Positions 14,508 through 45,479 of a stretch of DNA of 64,000 bases are shown piece after piece. The stretch covers positions 2,229,001 to 2,293,000 of the forward strand of contig NZ_CP097562.1 in assembly GCF_000487995.2 (NCBI RefSeq). The letters are read 5' to 3'. The DNA comes from Mucispirillum schaedleri ASF457. GTDB taxonomy: Bacteria > Chrysiogenota > Deferribacteres > Deferribacterales > Mucispirillaceae. The position numbers were made by a program, and so were the translations under genes. The notes beneath the pieces were generated by a model that saw only the letters and a program-made list of their open reading frames with translations, was not told where the DNA came from and ran no database searches. The first letter of the stretch is position 1; each line of letters opens with the position of its first letter.

Positions 14508-15060
14508 ATGGTAAGAAAATACAGCTATGAGTTTAAGAAGTTTATAGTTTATAGTGACAGTCTTAGAAAGCGGTATAATGAGTGCCAGTGAATTATCAAG
14601 ACGCTTAAAAATACATAAAGGAGTAGTATGCAGAATATATAATAAATATAAGTGTTTAGGAGATGAAGGTTTAAAATATACCTACACTCGTAAAAAATAT
14701 ACAATTGAATTTAAAATAAAAGTGTTAAAGTATAAGTTAGAAAATAATTTAACTTATGAACAGGCATCATTACACTTTAATATTCCATCATCTAAAGTAA
14801 TATATGACTGGAATAAGTTTTGCAGTAAGTTTATTGGAGATAATATGTCAGATAAGAATATCCTGAACATTAAAAAGAGTAAACACTCAAACTCTACTGA
14901 TATTAAACTCACTAAATCAGAGTATAGTGAAGAAGTAAGACAATTAAAAGAGAGAATATCAGAACTTGAAAAAGAGCTTTATTACAAGTCAGCGGAGACT
15001 GCATATTTAAAAAAGCTGGAAGCCTTAATGCAGGAGAAGCAGGAGAAAAGACAGAAATAA
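14508..15060 (+). pseudogene. IS3-family transposase orfA, frameshifted
   Basis: The gene should start at ATG 14508, preceded by AAGGAG, and read VRKYSYEFKKFIV then TVLESGIMSASELSRR. A 7-bp tandem duplication, TTTATAG twice at 14541-14554, shifts the frame by one base after KKF, so the start is separated from the rest. Removing one copy restores a continuous protein of about 181 aa with a helix-turn-helix domain and a C-terminal coiled coil (LKERISELEKELYYKSAETA). Ending at 15060, it could feed orfB by -1 frameshifting near GAAAAG, because the -1 frame is open across the junction. The damage probably abolishes transposase synthesis. Confidence 0.85.
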
Positions 15061-15062
15061 TA

Positions 15063-15886
15063 ATGTCATTAAGGCAATACTACAAATTAGATACTCTGTT
15101 GTTAGCAAGTAATATGAAACGAAGCACATACTATTATAATATTAAAATGCTTATAAAATAGATAAATATGCATCAGCGAAGACAGCAATATTAGAGATAT
15201 ATGAAAAGTCTAATAAGACTTACGGCTATCCAAGAATATCAAAGGCATTAGAGAAACTGGGTTATACTTATGACAGGAAGACCGTGTATAAATTGATGAA
15301 AGAACTAAAAATATCATCAATAATCAGAATTAAAAGGAGGTATAAAAGAGGTAAACTAAGCTGTATATGTGAGAATAAATTAAATAGAGAATTTACAAGT
15401 GATAGACCATGTTTAAAATGGGTAACAGATGTAACAGAGATAAAAATAAATAATGAGAAGTTGAACTTATCAGTCATAATGGATTTATATAACAGAGAAG
15501 TCAAAGCATACAGCATAAGTAAATATAATAATGAAGATATGGTAATTGATAGTTTAAAGCAGGCAATATGTAAGACACAAGATTTAACAGGTTTAATGAT
15601 ACATTCAGACCAGGGTATATTATATCAGGCTAATCAATTTAGAAAGTTATTAAAGGAAAATAATATAGAGCAGAGTATGTCAAGGCGTGGCAACTGCTAT
15701 GATAATGCTGTTATGGAAAGTTTCTTTGCTACTTTAAAATGTGAATTTGTTTATATAAACAAATTTGAAAATACTGAACAGTTTAAATATGAACTTGAAA
15801 AATATATTGATTTCTATAATAATTACAGAATCAAAGCCAATGGACTTACTCCATTACAGGATAATAAATTTATTAAGGTGGCTTAG
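15063..15886 (+). pseudogene. IS3-family transposase orfB (DDE integrase), frameshifted
   Basis: From ATG 15063 the frame reads MSLRQYYKLDTLLLASNMKR to KMLIK, then stops at 15156-15161. The protein resumes in another frame as KIDKYASAKTAILEIYEKS, consistent with loss of one base near 15150. The rest is intact: TYGYPRI, then the DDE triad in WVTDVTEIK, IHSDQG and DNAVMESFFATLKCE. The family cleaves and joins IS ends in cis. This copy is unlikely to make an active protein, although the catalytic core itself is unbroken. Confidence 0.85.
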
Positions 15887-17089: not shown

Positions 17090-18175
17090 GTGAGTAAATT
17101 CAGCTTGTATTTATTAAAATTATTTTTGAAAAATTTAGCTGTTGTATCTTTATTTGTTATGATACTTCTGTGGCTTTCTTCTGCTTATGGAAACCTTAAT
17201 ATATTAGACGGATATGACTATTCTGCTGTTGATTTTATTGTGGTAGGGATATACAGTACGATTTTGGGAATTAATCCTATTATACCGATAATTATTTCTG
17301 TAAGTATTATTGTTACAATGATAATACTCATGCGTAGTAATGAGCTGCTTGCATATATGGTTATAGGCGGCTCTCTTGCAAGGCTTTCTATTCCCCTTGT
17401 TTTAATAGGTGTAGTTATAAGCTCTTTTATGTTGTTTATGGACTATAAGGCTGTTCCAGAAGTACGTGAAGTCCGTGAAAATATGTTAAAAACTATGCGT
17501 GATATGCCTGTATCAAATAATGCCAGTGGCTTTTATGATACATGGTTTTTAGATAAAAATCAGGTTATTACCCATATATCTCTTGTTTCTATATCAGAAA
17601 AAACTATCTATGGTGTTGATGAATATATATTAGATAAAAATGGCAGAATATCTAATATTAATAAAACAGAAAAACTTGTAAAAGAAGATGATAAGTGGGT
17701 TGCATATAATACTCAGCAGATGAGTATATTAAGCAATCCGCCTGAAATTAAACATATTGATAGAAATGTATTAAATGATGATTCGTGGGACAGGCTTATA
17801 TCTATATCTACCAGTGATATTCGTGCATATACACCTACTGAGTTATATACATTAATACAGCTTTTCAGAGAAAAGGGTATAAATACTGATACATTAGAGC
17901 TTAATTTATACTATAAATTTGCCTATGCAGTTTCTGTTATAGTTTTGATTATTTTGCTTTATCCTATATCTATTAATTTTTCAAGAAATTATTCTATTGT
18001 AAAAAATGCGTCTCTTACATTTTCAATTTCACTTGTATTTATATTAGTGCAGCACAGCAGCCGCTCACTTGGTTCAAGTGGGATTATACCCCCAATTGCT
18101 GCAACATTTGGACCTATTATCATATTTTTATGTATTGGAATATTTCTAATATATTATAGAAGTCTTGCAAAATAA
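17090..18175 (+). CDS. LptF/LptG family permease (YjgP/YjgQ)
   Basis: This 361-aa protein has six membrane segments, three N-terminal (about 12-35, 50-80, 97-118) and three C-terminal (about 275-355), around a periplasmic beta-jellyroll-like domain. This is the LptF/G layout. Family features are MRSNELLAYMVIGGSLAR (the coupling helix contacting the LptB ATPase) and the C-terminal SRSLGSSGIIPPIAA. Start is a GTG at 17090. LptFG extract LPS from the inner membrane for export. Only one of the pair is here, and assignment to F or G is uncertain. It lies upstream of glycan-transfer genes. Confidence 0.9.
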   Translation: MSKFSLYLLKLFLKNLAVVSLFVMILLWLSSAYGNLNILDGYDYSAVDFIVVGIYSTILGINPIIPIIISVSIIVTMIILMRSNELLAYMVIGGSLARLSIPLVLIGVVISSFMLFMDYKAVPEVREVRENMLKTMRDMPVSNNASGFYDTWFLDKNQVITHISLVSISEKTIYGVDEYILDKNGRISNINKTEKLVKEDDKWVAYNTQQMSILSNPPEIKHIDRNVLNDDSWDRLISISTSDIRAYTPTELYTLIQLFREKGINTDTLELNLYYKFAYAVSVIVLIILLYPISINFSRNYSIVKNASLTFSISLVFILVQHSSRSLGSSGIIPPIAATFGPIIIFLCIGIFLIYYRSLAK

Positions 18176-18251: not shown

Positions 18252-19187
18252 ATGGGGCAAAAGTTAAAGTTTGCAGTTCGTCTTTTAGTTAGTATTTTTT
18301 TGCTTGGTATTTTAATATATATTGCAGGTCCTGCACAAATATATAAGGAATTAATAAACAGCAGACTAGATTATAATTTTGCAGGCTTCATTTTAATATT
18401 AACAGGCACTTTTGTTGCTGTATACCGCTGGTATATAATTATGAATGAGCTTGATTTTCCTAAAACTCCATTTTTATTTTATTTTAAAAGTTATTTCAGG
18501 GGTATATTTTTTAATCAGCTGCTGCCTTCATCTATTGGCGGCGATGCTGTTAAAGTAATAGATACAGCAAAACAGTTAGGATGTAAAAAACGGGAAGCAT
18601 TTGTTGGTGTATTAATAGACAGAGGGCTTGGTATTGCAGGTATTTTCCTTTTAAACCTTATTTTTAACAATATGGCACAAGGTTTTCTGCCAAAATCAAG
18701 CTATTATATATTAAATATAATATCTTTTTCTGGGACAGCAGGTTTTATTGTTTTTATGTTTTTGCATAAAATAGAATATTTAAACAGATTTAAATTTTAT
18801 CAAGTTATAAGTATTCCATCAAAAGCACTATGGACTGTTATGGCTGGTTTTAAAAAAACTTTTTTGCAGGTAATCTTGTCATTATCTATACATATATTTA
18901 CTTTTGCAGGTGTATATATGATAGCAAGGGCTTTTGGGGTGGATTTGCCGCTCTATGCTTTTATGGTAATAATGCCGCCTGTAATACTGCTTACAATTAT
19001 CCCTATTTCGCTTGCAGGCTGGGGTGTTAGAGAAGTCAGTATGGTAAGCCTTTTAAGTTATTCTGGTATTGCTCAGGAAACTGCTTTATCTATATCTATT
19101 ATTTTTGGATTTACTTATGTAATACAAGGTCTTCTTGGATTATATTTTTTTATAAACAGTAAAAAGGAGATAAATAATGAAAGTTGA
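18252..19187 (+). CDS. YbhN/AglD-like flippase-type membrane protein
   Basis: This 311-aa protein with about eight membrane helices belongs to the UPF0104 / lysylphosphatidylglycerol-synthase-TM superfamily. Landmarks are YFRGIFFNQLLPSSIGGDAV, GVLIDRGLGIAGIF and IPISLAGWGVREVSMVSL. A strong GGAGG precedes the ATG. In cell-envelope clusters such proteins are linked to lipid or polyprenyl-linked glycan movement. It overlaps the following glycosyltransferase gene by 11 bp, indicating coupled translation and a common pathway. Substrate unknown. Confidence 0.85.
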   Translation: MGQKLKFAVRLLVSIFLLGILIYIAGPAQIYKELINSRLDYNFAGFILILTGTFVAVYRWYIIMNELDFPKTPFLFYFKSYFRGIFFNQLLPSSIGGDAVKVIDTAKQLGCKKREAFVGVLIDRGLGIAGIFLLNLIFNNMAQGFLPKSSYYILNIISFSGTAGFIVFMFLHKIEYLNRFKFYQVISIPSKALWTVMAGFKKTFLQVILSLSIHIFTFAGVYMIARAFGVDLPLYAFMVIMPPVILLTIIPISLAGWGVREVSMVSLLSYSGIAQETALSISIIFGFTYVIQGLLGLYFFINSKKEINNES

Positions 19188-20382
19188 TACAATGAGATTT
19201 GTAGATAAATATTTTGGAGTGCCACTTTGTTTGATTGGCACTGCCATTTTTAAGATTTTTGGACGACCTAAAAAAAATGTTAAGCCTAAAAATATACTTT
19301 TTATAGAGCTTTCAGAAATGGGTAGTGCAATACTTGTAGACCCTGCTATGCAGAAAGCAAAAAAGGCTTTTGATGCAGACTTATTTTTCTTAATATTTAA
19401 AAAAAATAAACCATCATTACAGCTTTTAAATACGGTAGATGATAAAAATATTTTTACAATCAATGCAGATGGTATCATTTCTCTTATTAAAGATACATGG
19501 AAGTTTTTATTTTGGGCGAGAAAAAGAAAAATAGATACTTGTATAGATTTAGAATTATTTTCACGATATTCTGGTCTTTTAGCAGGTTTTGCAGGTGCAG
19601 ATAACATAGTTGCATTTAATAATTTTCATGGGGAAGGTCTTTATAAAGGCAATATGGTTACTCATAAAGTCATGTATAACAGCCATATACATATATCCAA
19701 AAATTTTATAGCTATGGTTAATGCTCTTATGTCTGATAAAAAAGAACTGCCTTATTCTAAAACGAAAATATATGACAGTGAAATAGTGCTTAGAAAAGCA
19801 GAAATAAGCGAAGAATTGAAAGAAAAGGTAGCCGCAAAGATACAAAGGATTATACCAGAATATAATGGGGGGGGGAATAAACTTATTTTAATAAACCCTA
19901 ATGCAAGCGAGCTTTTGCCACAAAGAAGGTGGGACAAGAATAAATATAAAGATTTAATAAATAGAATATTAGAAGAATATAAAGATGTGTATGTATTAAT
20001 TACTGGTGCTCCTAATGAGAAAAAGGAAGCAGAACAGCTTGCGCATCAGTGCGGGGATAGATGTTTCAGCTTTGCTGGTGCTGTAAAATTTTCAGAATTA
20101 ATTGGTTTGTATGAATTATCTAAAATTATGATAACAAATGATTCAGGTCCTGCACATTTTGCGGCAGTTACAAGTATGCCAACAATAGTTATATTTGGTC
20201 CAGAAACACCAGCATTATACAGCTCCCTTGGTAAAACAAGACCAGTATATGCTAACCTTGCATGCTCTCCGTGTGTTAGTGCTGCAAACCACAGAAAAAC
20301 TCCATGTAAAGATAATGTATGCCTGCAAATGATTACAGTTGATGAAGTATTTAATGTATTTAAGGAAGAATATAATGGATAA
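19177..20382 (+). CDS. Glycosyltransferase family 9 (heptosyltransferase-like), with a G9 tract
   Basis: This 401-aa protein has a Rossmann N-domain (KPKNILFIELSEMGSAILVD) and a C-domain with LINPNASELLPQRRWDKNKY, VLITGAPNEKKEAEQL and MITNDSGPAHFAAV. The last is the GT9 nucleotide-sugar site seen in WaaC/WaaF. It would transfer a heptose or similar sugar to LPS core. The linker between domains is encoded by nine consecutive G (Gly231-233, NGGGN), very unusual in this AT-rich sequence. Slippage there would truncate the enzyme. GGAG sits before the ATG inside the upstream gene. The next gene overlaps by 8 bp. Confidence 0.92.
   Translation: MKVDTMRFVDKYFGVPLCLIGTAIFKIFGRPKKNVKPKNILFIELSEMGSAILVDPAMQKAKKAFDADLFFLIFKKNKPSLQLLNTVDDKNIFTINADGIISLIKDTWKFLFWARKRKIDTCIDLELFSRYSGLLAGFAGADNIVAFNNFHGEGLYKGNMVTHKVMYNSHIHISKNFIAMVNALMSDKKELPYSKTKIYDSEIVLRKAEISEELKEKVAAKIQRIIPEYNGGGNKLILINPNASELLPQRRWDKNKYKDLINRILEEYKDVYVLITGAPNEKKEAEQLAHQCGDRCFSFAGAVKFSELIGLYELSKIMITNDSGPAHFAAVTSMPTIVIFGPETPALYSSLGKTRPVYANLACSPCVSAANHRKTPCKDNVCLQMITVDEVFNVFKEEYNG
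19867..19875 (+). repeat. Poly-G (G9) tract inside the GT9 gene
   Basis: Nine consecutive G encode Gly-Gly-Gly in frame. Long G runs in AT-rich genomes are classic sites of slipped-strand phase variation. Here the ON frame is present. Confidence 0.75.
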
Positions 20383-21796
20383 GTCAGTAGTTAAGCTAAA
20401 TCAGCGGACAATATTAGCGATTTTAATAGTTTTCAGTATTTTACAGGCACTTTATAATGCTCTTTTGCCTATTTATCTTGATGAAGCATATTACTGGGTA
20501 TGGGCAATGCGTCCAGAATTCAGCTATTATGACCATCCTGGTATGGTTGCCTGGATGATTTATCCATTTACATTTATAGCAAATAATGAGTTTACTATTC
20601 GCTTATCTACTGTAATTGCAATGTCTGTTACAGTATGGTATCTCGTGAAAGTCAGTTTAGAAGCATTTCAGAATGATGAAGAAAAAAATACTGCATGGTA
20701 TGTATTTTTTATTTTTATTGCAAATCCTGCAGTGCATATGGGTTATGTTTTTATTACACCAGATTCACCGCTTATGATGTTCTGGGCAGCTGGTCTTTAC
20801 TATACATTTATGGCATTAAAATATGGCAAAACTAAGGATTTTATTATATCAGGTTTTCTTGTGGGAGCTATGATGCTTAGTAAGTATGCAGGTATTTTAT
20901 TTCCTGCTGCTGTATTTTTATATATATTAATATGCAGGCGTGATGTATTAAAAGATTACAGACTTTGGGTTTCGCTTATTATTGCAATACTCTGCCTTTT
21001 TCCTATTTTTTACTGGAATTATCAGTATGACTGGATAAGTATAAAGTTTCAGTATGAGCATGGCACAAGTTCTGGTTTTTCATTTGCAGGCTGGGATTTT
21101 ATTCTTTTTATATTAGGTAGTTTATTTGTTATACCTACACCTGTTTTTGGCTATGTATTTTTAAAATATTTATGGCTTAAAGATTATCTTCATAATAAAG
21201 AAGTGTTGTTTTTTATCTTTTTAGCTCTAGTTCCAATGCTTTTCTTTTTTTATAAAGGTTTTTTTAAGAAAATGGAGCTTAACTGGATTATTCCTGCATT
21301 TATTTCAAGTATTATATTAATAGGTTATGCTGTTGCAAAGTATAATATGAAAAAAACATTTAAATATGGTATTATTTTTTCATTAGTTTTAGTTGTTATA
21401 TTAAAACTTGCACCTGTGCTGCCTTTTCCAGCACATTTAAATATTGCTGAAAGGCTTATAGGATATAAAGAAGCTGTAATTCAGTTTGAAAAATATATTA
21501 AAGATGATGATTTAATATTCAGCAACCATTTAACTACTGCATCAATGCTTACTTTTTATCTGCCAGAGCATCCATTAACTCATATTAATGTTCCGTCAAG
21601 ATTTAGTCAGTATACTATATGGGATGAAACTGATGGGATATTTAATTATGATAAAGAAGGGGTATATTTTGGCAAAGATGATGCATATAATTTTTTAAAA
21701 GAAAAATACAGCTCTGTCATACCTTTGGAAGTGATAAAAGTAACTCCATATAATGCTTTTGAAAAAACATTTTATGTATACAGATGTATTCCTTAA
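20375..21796 (+). CDS. ArnT/PMT-like (GT-C fold) membrane glycosyltransferase
   Basis: The start is ATG 20375 (AAGGAAG upstream), giving 473 aa; an in-frame codon at 20339 lies deep in the previous gene. About ten membrane helices are visible. The first periplasmic loop holds the catalytic acidic motif IYLDEAYYWVWA followed by SYYDHPGMVAW, the PMT_2/GT83-type signature. Such enzymes move a sugar from a polyprenyl phosphate carrier onto lipid A, glycans or proteins on the periplasmic side. It forms an overlapping operon with the YbhN-like and GT9 genes, which suggests LPS or glycolipid modification. The exact acceptor is unknown. Confidence 0.88.
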   Translation: MDKSVVKLNQRTILAILIVFSILQALYNALLPIYLDEAYYWVWAMRPEFSYYDHPGMVAWMIYPFTFIANNEFTIRLSTVIAMSVTVWYLVKVSLEAFQNDEEKNTAWYVFFIFIANPAVHMGYVFITPDSPLMMFWAAGLYYTFMALKYGKTKDFIISGFLVGAMMLSKYAGILFPAAVFLYILICRRDVLKDYRLWVSLIIAILCLFPIFYWNYQYDWISIKFQYEHGTSSGFSFAGWDFILFILGSLFVIPTPVFGYVFLKYLWLKDYLHNKEVLFFIFLALVPMLFFFYKGFFKKMELNWIIPAFISSIILIGYAVAKYNMKKTFKYGIIFSLVLVVILKLAPVLPFPAHLNIAERLIGYKEAVIQFEKYIKDDDLIFSNHLTTASMLTFYLPEHPLTHINVPSRFSQYTIWDETDGIFNYDKEGVYFGKDDAYNFLKEKYSSVIPLEVIKVTPYNAFEKTFYVYRCIP

Positions 21797-41757: not shown

Positions 41758-41840
41758 TGCAGAAAAAGTGTAATTTATAAGTTGATAAAGATTTATTTTT
41801 GAGTATATTAAAGATACAAAAAAACTTGGAGGCAAAGAAG

Positions 41841-44800
41841 ATGGGAAAAGAAACTAATGTTTTAAAATCATTAGAAGAAAGCTCAGTGTCAAGACGATCC
41901 TTTTTAAAAGGCCTTGCAGCAATGGGTGCCATTGGTGCTGTGGCTGGCTGCTCTAAAGACAGCGGTTCAGAAATCATATATGGGGGGGGGAATTTAGGAA
42001 ATGTAATATCTCCCGAAGACCTTTCTAACCCAAAAATCTATTACACATCCTGCGTTCATAACTGTGGCACAGGCATTCGCTGTGTTTCAAAATTACATGT
42101 AGTAAATGGAAGAATAGTCCGAGTTACATCAGATGACAGCGATTATGCATTTGATGGAACTTATAGAAATAAAGAGCAGTATAACGATGCTCGTTCATTA
42201 ACCTGCCCTAAGGGTAGAGCTATTAAATACCGTGCTCATCATCCTGCAAAGCTTCGCTACGCTTTAAAGCAGACTAAGGGGCGGGGTGACTTATCTGGCT
42301 TTATTAGAATTCCTGTTGATGAAGCCTTAAAAGAAATTGCAACAAAATATAGAAAAACTGTTGAAAGGTATGGTCCTGGTGCAGTCCATAATATTTATGG
42401 CACATCAGGCGGTTACAGCAGTCAGGGAACTTATGCAAGTTACAGCTCTACAAGGTCTGCACTTACTCCAGCTGGAGCAAGAGGCGGCTATGGAGACTAC
42501 AGTTATTATCAATATCACTTTGGCTCAGTTATTGTAGGTCACCCAGGTTCATGTGGTGCATATACTAAATCATCAAATGTTTCATGGCAGTTTCCTGCAA
42601 TTGCAGGCGTTGTAAAAAATGTTGTTTCTTGGGGAGCAAATATTCTTACAACAGTAAACTCTGCCAGCTGGTCTTATATTAGAGCATTTGAAAAATTAAA
42701 AGAACGCGGTGGCAGAGCATGGTTTATTGGACCAGAACTTACAGATACTGGTGTTACATGCCATACTGACTGGATACAATCTCGTAACTATACAGATGTT
42801 GCATTAATTATGGGTATGCTTTATGAAATGCTTGTAAATACATTTGATTCAAATGGTGCAATAAAAAAATCATCTAAAGCATTAGATATAGATTATATAG
42901 ATACAATGGTGCATGGTTTCTTTGCATCTCCAGAATACTATGTTAATACAACTACTGGTCAAATAGTAAAAGAAAAACCAGCTGATACTACTGGTTATCG
43001 TCATATAGAAGCTGTTGAAGCAGGTAAATGTTTAGCATCATACATATTAGGTGGAAATGCAGCACTTATTGGAAACCCAAAATATAATGCAAACTCTACA
43101 AACTATACAGCAAAAAAATATCATGAATTCAGCAATAATATGCCAAGGGTTGGTAAAGTATCTTGGAAAGTAACAAAAGGTGCAGGAACTGAATATCAAT
43201 ATAAAAAAGATTTTAATGTGCCAAAAACTCCAGAATGGGCTGAAAAAATTACTGGTGTTCCAGCAGCTAAAATAAGAGAGCTTGCAAATATGTATACAGA
43301 CCCAGAACAGCACCCAATATTTAATGAATGGGCTGGCGGCACACAAAAGCAGTTAAATGGTTCTATCCAGCTTTGGGCAATTACTGCACTTATGGCTATC
43401 ACAAAAACATTTGGTTTAAGCGGTGAAACTTTTAGTGGTGCATGGGCTACTACAAACTCTCGTGGTCCAGTTGCAGATACTGATACTAATAATTACCTTG
43501 ATTTTTCATCAATTACTGTTGGTAATGCTGGAACTACTGCAAATAGTTCTAATGACTATACAGGTGAAGTATCTATTTCTGATAGGACAGTTAATAGTAT
43601 TTCATGTAAAGAATGGTTTAATGGTATTAAGATAGCTTTCAAAGACTATCTAACTCCAGAAAGAGGCTATACTGGTGAAAATATTCCAGACTGGGATATG
43701 AGTAAAAGATATTATTCAAATGACGGTGGTGTTAAATCACTTGTGATGTTTGAAAGAGATACTACAAATAAAGACCAACTTCAAACAGAAGTAATAAATG
43801 GTAAAACATACTATAAAGTAAAAAAAGATGCAAACGGTAATCCAATATTTTCAGGTATCCGTATGATATTAAATGCTGGTGGTGCAATTATGGTTAACCA
43901 GCACATGAATACAAATGATTTAACTGCAATGTATAAAGCAATACCTGCATTAAACTCACAAGAAGGAGGCGGCTATACTAATGCAGACAGCCTTTGCCTT
44001 GTAACATTTGATTTATTTATGTCACCAACTGCAAGATATATGGACTATGTATTGCCAGCAGTTTCTCAACTTGAAGCAGTAGGCAGGGAAGTATTTGGCG
44101 GTCAGTATAAAGCAATGTATAGACCACCTGTTGTAGAACCATTAGGTGATGCTCTTGACAGCTGGACAATGACTTATAAAGCATGGGTTGCTCAAAGCCA
44201 GCTTGGTGAAATAAGTTATGGTGAAAGAACTACAACAGGTATTAGTGCTGCTCCAAGTAAATATACTAATAATTCAAGCTTTAAACCTATAAGAAATTAT
44301 TTTGATGCAGAAGTGGATAAAGCAACTGCGGACCCTGCTTCAAAATACTATGGTATGACAAGAGATGAAGTTTATGGTGCACAATTTACACCTGCTAAAA
44401 ATAATGATGAATATATCTGCACTTCGTTATATGAAACAAAAGGAACAACTACAAGCTGGGCTCGTGGTGACAGCGATACATCAGAAGGTGCCCGTAACAA
44501 TATTTCACAAGTTGGTCAAATTAGAAAGAACCTTGATACATATCTTAAAGGAGATATGACAGCTCCATTTATATTTACAACGGAAAATAGTGTCCAAAAT
44601 AAATTTGATGGAAGCACATATTTAAGTGCTGCAAACAGTGAAGCTTCTTTGCTTGATACTTCTTCAAGACCAGAAATGTCTGGTAAATTCCAAATTTATA
44701 ATGGCAGAGTTCAGTGGGATTATGAACATGCTTTTGAAAAATACCATGGATGGCTGCCTGCTGAAAATCGCGGACAGGAAAATAAAGACCCAGAAGGTGA

Positions 44801-45479
44801 TTTAAAAGTTTATCCAATACCAATGTATTTTAACTTTGAAGACTGTTTCAAAGAATCTTACAATGGTTTTAAAAAGGTGGATTCTGCTACTGGTAAAGCA
44901 CAAGCTGGTCCAAATGCAGCATTTTTTGCAGGAACAGGAAGAGACAAACCTCTTACAATGAGCACAACTCATGATAGATTTAGAGTTCACTCTACCCATG
45001 ATGAAAACCCACTTTTACGAGAGCTTAACCATAGAACTATAAACGGTGGCTGGGCAAGTGGTAATGACTGGAAAGAATACTGCATAGTTCCAGAAAGACA
45101 AACAGTAAATTCTGCAGCTGCTTATGAATCACCTATGATAAGCTCTGCAATTTATAACAAAAACAGAGAAACTGCATCATGGCATGAGATATGGATAAAT
45201 ACTCAGGATGCAGCAGAACGCGGTATTACTGACGGTATGCTTTGCCGTGTAGAAAACCCTATTGGTAAAATAAGAGTTATTGCTCGTGTTACAGACCGTT
45301 GTATTCCGGGACATTTAAACCTGCACCAAGGTGGCTGGTATGACCCTAATACTGACGGAGTAGATGATGGTGGTAATGCTAATACATTAATAGCATCAAC
45401 TCCATCAAGATATGACCATGGTAACGCTCAGCAGTCTGCTTATGTTATCATTAAACCTGAAACAGAATTTAATATATAA
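41841..45479 (+). CDS. DMSO reductase-family molybdopterin oxidoreductase, catalytic subunit, Tat lipoprotein, with G9 tract
   Basis: ATG 41841 is preceded by GGAGG at 8 bp, giving 1212 aa (an in-frame codon at 41799 lacks a site). The leader holds a twin-arginine motif SRRSFLKG (R18-R19) and a lipobox AVAGC (C37), so the protein is probably Tat-exported and acylated. A 4Fe-4S cysteine cluster follows (SCVHNCGTGIRC and a later LTCPKG). The molybdopterin domain has KLHVVNGRIVRVTSDD, SWGANILTTVNSASW and the C-terminal WINTQDAAERGITDG with HQGGWYDP. Nine G at 41982-41990 encode Gly48-50 right after the leader, so slippage would switch the enzyme off. The terminal acceptor (DMSO, TMAO, nitrate, selenate or other) cannot be told from sequence. 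Confidence 0.9.
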   Translation: MGKETNVLKSLEESSVSRRSFLKGLAAMGAIGAVAGCSKDSGSEIIYGGGNLGNVISPEDLSNPKIYYTSCVHNCGTGIRCVSKLHVVNGRIVRVTSDDSDYAFDGTYRNKEQYNDARSLTCPKGRAIKYRAHHPAKLRYALKQTKGRGDLSGFIRIPVDEALKEIATKYRKTVERYGPGAVHNIYGTSGGYSSQGTYASYSSTRSALTPAGARGGYGDYSYYQYHFGSVIVGHPGSCGAYTKSSNVSWQFPAIAGVVKNVVSWGANILTTVNSASWSYIRAFEKLKERGGRAWFIGPELTDTGVTCHTDWIQSRNYTDVALIMGMLYEMLVNTFDSNGAIKKSSKALDIDYIDTMVHGFFASPEYYVNTTTGQIVKEKPADTTGYRHIEAVEAGKCLASYILGGNAALIGNPKYNANSTNYTAKKYHEFSNNMPRVGKVSWKVTKGAGTEYQYKKDFNVPKTPEWAEKITGVPAAKIRELANMYTDPEQHPIFNEWAGGTQKQLNGSIQLWAITALMAITKTFGLSGETFSGAWATTNSRGPVADTDTNNYLDFSSITVGNAGTTANSSNDYTGEVSISDRTVNSISCKEWFNGIKIAFKDYLTPERGYTGENIPDWDMSKRYYSNDGGVKSLVMFERDTTNKDQLQTEVINGKTYYKVKKDANGNPIFSGIRMILNAGGAIMVNQHMNTNDLTAMYKAIPALNSQEGGGYTNADSLCLVTFDLFMSPTARYMDYVLPAVSQLEAVGREVFGGQYKAMYRPPVVEPLGDALDSWTMTYKAWVAQSQLGEISYGERTTTGISAAPSKYTNNSSFKPIRNYFDAEVDKATADPASKYYGMTRDEVYGAQFTPAKNNDEYICTSLYETKGTTTSWARGDSDTSEGARNNISQVGQIRKNLDTYLKGDMTAPFIFTTENSVQNKFDGSTYLSAANSEASLLDTSSRPEMSGKFQIYNGRVQWDYEHAFEKYHGWLPAENRGQENKDPEGDLKVYPIPMYFNFEDCFKESYNGFKKVDSATGKAQAGPNAAFFAGTGRDKPLTMSTTHDRFRVHSTHDENPLLRELNHRTINGGWASGNDWKEYCIVPERQTVNSAAAYESPMISSAIYNKNRETASWHEIWINTQDAAERGITDGMLCRVENPIGKIRVIARVTDRCIPGHLNLHQGGWYDPNTDGVDDGGNANTLIASTPSRYDHGNAQQSAYVIIKPETEFNI
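41982..41990 (+). repeat. Poly-G (G9) tract inside the molybdoreductase gene
   Basis: Nine consecutive G encode Gly-Gly-Gly in frame immediately after the export leader. It is the same length and coding as the tract in the GT9 gene at 19867. Confidence 0.75.

Follow-up and report, generated by a model that had tools for sequence, protein, structure and literature searches.

A G9 tract in a GT9 glycosyltransferase gene of Mucispirillum schaedleri as a candidate contingency locus within a genome-wide set of poly-G/C tracts

The window analyzed here is a 64-kb stretch (C1:2229001-2293000) of the M. schaedleri genome, which consists of a single contig, C1, of 2,347,083 bases. On its forward strand lies a gene for a heptosyltransferase-like GT9 glycosyltransferase (19177..20382), whose 401-aa product matched PF01075 at 1.6e-21 with ~77-78 bits (77.2 against a curated cut-off of 22) and thus belongs to the GT9 family. 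The gene is intact, and therefore ON, at a run of nine G residues (19867..19875, forward strand), a candidate slippage site that reads GGG GGG GGG in phase with the codons of the ORF and encodes Gly231-Gly232-Gly233. The initial annotation had reported this tract and likened it in length and Gly-Gly-Gly coding to a tract in a reductase gene. Its position proved exact and the likeness was confirmed, the second tract being an equally in-phase G9 at 41982..41990 (forward strand) in a TAT/molybdopterin DMSO-reductase-like gene (41799-45479) that is also ON. These are the two G runs of ≥6 in the window, where the next longest run is 5. An Rfam search of the window gave no match.

The GT9 gene is part of a cluster of forward-strand genes that starts with an LptG-like LPS export permease (17090..18175; 145 bits with TIGR04408, below its cut-off of 240), continues with a flippase-like membrane protein (LPG_synthase_TM/TIGR00374; 18252..19187) and the GT9 gene, and closes with a PMT_2 (ArnT/GT39-type) glycosyltransferase (20375..21796), after which comes a convergent comEC. 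Four sister species share this arrangement, with 74-94% identity of the encoded proteins. The overlapping operon described earlier was borne out at both junctions: the flippase-like gene and the start of the GT9 gene share 11 nt, and the start of PMT_2 overlaps the GT9 stop by 8 nt (20375-20382, ATGGATAA). The latter overlap is kept in the four sister species and reads ATGGATAG in two relatives. Close orthologs of the GT9 protein were found only in Mucispirillum genomes, and an IMG/VR scan with the flanking pattern returned no further copies of the locus. Transposase-like ORFs (helix-turn-helix plus integrase-like, IS3-type by eye) occupy 14554-15886 of the window, ~1.2 kb upstream of the lptG-like gene.

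The initial annotation had proposed a role in the LPS core or another glycan. The GT9 protein scored below every NCBIfam heptosyltransferase equivalog cut-off (TIGR02195, 60/134.6; TIGR02201, 54.6/170.2; TIGR02193, 37/185.3) and so is not supported as one of the LPS inner-core heptosyltransferases WaaC/WaaF/WaaQ. The best-fitting GT9 pair of the genome, encoded by adjacent genes at C1:1394223-1395914, reached 145 and 102 bits, lies at no listed tract and, judged by these scores, provides better inner-core candidates than the tract-bearing GT9 of the window. Because of the sub-cut-off scores and the better pair elsewhere, the LPS-core half of the proposal is not supported, and the protein is better described as a putative accessory GT9. 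The other half, a role in an envelope glycan, is reasonable because of the neighboring genes, which point to an envelope glycolipid pathway. The protein shares its family with the structurally solved WaaF/WaaC enzymes (PDB 1psw, 2gt1, 2h1h), with which its C-terminal domain, containing the N-D-S-G motif, can be aligned, but unlike them it stays under all the heptosyltransferase equivalog cut-offs.

The placement of the tract in an interdomain linker was upheld by two lines of evidence. Homology of the C-terminal half to solved GT9 structures begins at residue 234-249 (residue 244 by comparison with WaaF and residue 234 with 3tov). In addition, an AF2 model built with five close homologs (mean pLDDT of 49, usable at residues 210-320 only) contains a locally confident part with a helix at 212-225, a loop at 226-235 that holds the tract and a strand at 236-240. 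Homology and model together support a position between the domains, just before the predicted C-terminal nucleotide-sugar domain. A change of the tract by one unit in either direction truncates the product: the computed lengths are 233 aa for G7, 237 for G8, 234 for G10 and 238 for G11, compared with 401 aa for G9. The truncated forms (233-238 aa) all stop before the D-S-G-P motif at residues 322-325. Because the C-terminal domain of GT9 enzymes binds the nucleotide sugar, such truncation would be expected to abolish activity.

Slippage had also been predicted to exert a polar effect on the next glycosyltransferase. The truncation of GT9 was computed and the PMT_2 start does overlap, whereas polarity itself remains a deduction from this arrangement. 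The overlap makes it likely that PMT_2 is translationally coupled to GT9 and hence exposed to polarity, and an off-frame tract should uncouple it.

The presence of the G9 tract in the GT9 gene is not due to chance. With a first-order Markov model built from 12 unbiased stretches of the same genome (234 kb; P(G|G)=0.170, P(C|C)=0.166), 0.38 G/C runs of ≥9 are expected genome-wide and 43 are present; for the 64-kb window the corresponding numbers are 0.01 and 2. The length distribution in the whole genome is bimodal, with 6 runs of G8, 34 of G9, 7 of G10 and 2 of G11, and in the 856 kb that were examined for lengths 5-11 the counts were 128, 11, 4, 6, 33, 8 and 2, with the second peak at 9. PhasomeIt calls G/C runs of ≥7 (PMC6321876), and the GT9 tract, a G9 lying in phase inside a reading frame, exceeds this cut-off. 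The tract is thus far longer than chance predicts and belongs to a non-random genomic set.

This set comprises about 45 poly-G/C tracts, distributed over promoter spacers and genes with envelope, surface, restriction-modification (RM) or sensory functions. Glycan genes that hold a tract or directly follow one include two GT9s, a GT2 and two MBOAT acyltransferases, and a hexapeptide acyltransferase adjoins a short tract-bearing ORF. Four tracts (acyltransferase region, GT2, MBOAT and GT9) lie within 11 kb in a glycan locus (C1:1451584-1461989) that adjoins RgpF-like, GT2 and aminotransferase genes. Other tract-linked enzymes are two sulfatase-fold proteins, an ATP-grasp protein and four DMSO-reductase-like molybdoenzymes. 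One of the sulfatase-fold genes (L055:10284-12305) has two separate in-frame C9 tracts (C1:2207165 and 2208095), so that this one gene could be switched independently at two sites. Adhesin-like proteins are represented by two PKD and two Big_2 proteins, and the remainder includes an M66 peptidase that has a lectin domain, HsdS, VgrG, an AcrB-type pump, a methyl-accepting chemotaxis protein and two histidine-kinase-type proteins. Under the estimate of ~30 tract-bearing genes among ~2,100, the presence of tracts in 2 of the 6 GT9s and in both MBOATs of the genome has a chance of ~0.003 and ~0.0002, respectively. The chromosomal spread of the tracts is uneven: after a run at position 608, no G/C run of ≥9 occurs in C1:617-585471, and the remaining contig holds 42.

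At least eight tracts are located in promoter spacers. These poly-C runs (8-11) lie between -35 and -10 boxes of near-perfect sigma-70 type that have ≤1 mismatch in 12 relative to TTGACA/TATAAT and a spacing of 14-17 (C1:863232, 1217453, 1327554, 1567066, 1791309, 1805198, 1933225 and 1982876); random positions passed the same test at 0.0013 per site. The tract at C1:1217453 precedes a GtrII-type glucosyltransferase, and most of the downstream genes that were scanned had no Pfam match. Phase-variable promoters with homopolymer spacers are known from Neisseria porA and opc and from Bordetella fim. They resemble these eight or more tracts and differ from the GT9 tract, which is translational rather than promoter-borne.

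Lengths and coding states differed between species at other tracts of the set. The M. schaedleri gene for HsdS, the specificity subunit of a type I RM system, has a tract between its two target-recognition domains (C1:680945; L076:4261-4268) that is C8 and OFF, and the 206-aa product is cut down to one target-recognition domain, whereas in two sister species the tract is G9 and ON and the protein is full length (386 aa in G006 and 395 aa in G003). Phase-variable HsdS subunits of type I RM systems are known, NgoAV being an example with a similar tract between target-recognition domains; the M. schaedleri tract, at a locus separate from GT9, is a candidate for phase-variable DNA specificity. A tract in an outer-membrane-like protein is 9 and ON in M. 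schaedleri (370 aa) and G006 (373 aa) but 10 and OFF in G003 (26 aa). Two tracts, one in an MBOAT gene and the G9 of the second tract-bearing GT9 (C1:1461989), are ON at 9 in each of the three species compared, and the GT2 tract is present in two of the three. These ON/OFF differences are evidence of switching for the class of tracts and not for the GT9 tract of the window. Phase variation, as originally proposed, is therefore strongly supported for the genome and the genus by the length spectrum, the gene set, the promoter spacers and the interspecies states, with the GT9 tract itself a candidate site.

Similar differences were found among the reductases. In each of the four DMSO-reductase-like genes the G9 falls at approximately codon 52-61, a short way past the region of the TAT signal; the frame is open in the window copy and closed at G9 in the copies at C1:608, C1:1014143 and C1:1070453 (L057, L064 and L065). 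The sister species contain similar paralogs in mixed ON and OFF states. Phase variation of respiratory reductases would be out of the ordinary.

We also compared the site of the GT9 tract with its orthologs. The four sister-species GT9s are 87-92% identical to that of M. schaedleri and lack the tract. At 19864..19878 (forward strand), where the window GT9 has N-G-G-G-N, they encode K-R-G-D or K-K-G-D, one codon shorter, and no G/C run of ≥7 occurs in the 8-13 kb around these sister loci. The tract was thus gained in the M. schaedleri lineage or, less simply, lost in all others, and does not represent a long-conserved switch.

Taken together, we consider the GT9 G9 tract to be very probably a simple-sequence contingency locus and one member of the set of ~45 sites; slippage at this locus and a glycan phenotype are what we infer from the sequence. 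Its origin would be a short proto-tract that grew, in the M. schaedleri lineage, within a linker tolerant of length change. Slippage of the polymerase during replication would add or remove one G. With G9, and likewise with G6 or G12, the frame would be kept and full-length GT9 made (ON). With G7, G8, G10 or G11, the N-terminal acceptor-side domain alone would be produced, without the C-terminal nucleotide-sugar-binding domain (OFF), and translation would end >400 nt short of the overlapping start of PMT_2, which would lower PMT_2 expression. A population would then mix cells that carry out one step, or two steps linked to each other, of an accessory pathway for an envelope glycan with cells that do not.

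An alternative is that the tract is recent and neutral, a proto-tract in the tolerant linker having expanded under a genome-wide poly-G tendency, so that GT9 switching would have no selected role. This is consistent with the restriction of the tract to the M. schaedleri lineage and with the gain and loss of tracts elsewhere, as for GT2, but does not account for the uneven distribution by function seen in the GT9s and MBOATs, for promoter-spacer tracts far above chance or for a first 585 kb of the contig that holds just one tract, and we regard it as unlikely.

An error of assembly or sequencing, with a true tract of another length or none at all, is conceivable because homopolymers are error-prone. 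However, the GT9 ORF is open at exactly G9, unlike at the neighboring lengths, and three separately assembled species display the same G9-peaked spectrum: in regions chosen around their own tracts, G003 had 0, 0, 0, 21, 7 and 1 runs of lengths 6-11 and G006 had 0, 0, 1, 27 and 3 of lengths 6-10. Such an error is therefore very improbable. Selection for the Gly-Gly-Gly linker itself, for instance for hinge flexibility, with incidental coding by G9, would suit the interdomain position but is the least probable explanation, since GGG is the rarest glycine codon (8.9% of Gly codons) and yet encodes 17 of 105 Gly-Gly-Gly tripeptides as G9 in the sampled ORFs, a sample enriched for tract regions, compared with 0.07 expected from codon usage, an excess of poly-G DNA rather than of polyglycine; moreover, the sister linkers read K-R-G or K-K-G, and many tracts are read in frames other than Gly or lie outside genes.

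The contingency-locus interpretation invites comparison with Campylobacter jejuni, which is without functional mismatch repair. Loss of mismatch repair was considered as an explanation for the abundance of tracts in Mucispirillum and rejected, as MutS1 and MutL are intact in M. schaedleri and in most of the genus. In C. jejuni, tracts switch at 1e-4 to 1.6e-3 per division and are held mainly at G9/G10 by an insertion bias at G8 and a deletion bias at G11 (PMC8355987). The Mucispirillum length spectrum has the same shape, which suggests that the same dynamics operate. The poly-G/C loci of C. jejuni, in LOS, capsule and flagellar glycan genes, also share with those of Mucispirillum the type of tract, the prevalence of G9/G10, a location mostly in ORFs with an intergenic minority, surface-glycan targets and possible polarity on downstream genes (PMC8355987; PMC6321876). 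They differ in that C. jejuni belongs to another phylum and Mucispirillum, for which switching is predicted, has MutS and MutL. Because these genes are intact, the switching rate is uncertain; they may keep slippage at G9 low and the rate below that of C. jejuni.

Loci of this kind are already known in other bacteria and are newly noticed in Mucispirillum. We found no substantive description of phase variation in this genus in the literature searched (subscription papers were outside the search), and the words phase, homopolymer, lipopolysaccharide and frameshift are absent from the main text of the published genome description (PMC5285517). In Mucispirillum, which belongs to the Deferribacterota and lives as a commensal in the gut, the tracts probably form an undescribed phasome of ~45 poly-G/C switches, translational as well as promoter-spacer, in the presence of intact mismatch-repair genes. 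Such a phasome would extend beyond glycans to RM specificity, sensors and DMSO-reductase-like paralogs, with the GT9 switch recruited after the species split.

M. schaedleri is an abundant mucus-associated commensal of mice that has been linked to inflammation models and to protection from infection. Should the surface glycans, adhesins, RM specificity and respiratory reductases of this species flip randomly, isogenic colonies would differ to host, phage and competitors, and work in mice that assumes a uniform strain would call for genotyping at ~45 sites. It would also add a phylum with intact mismatch-repair genes to the users of poly-G contingency loci. When the phylum was surveyed by counting overlapping 9-mers, a count that takes in a small number of very long runs at the ends of contigs, most genera outside the Mucispirillum family had 0-9 tract matches, and 16-69 were found in near-complete Mucispirillum genomes, in two genomes of the same family and in a few other lineages.
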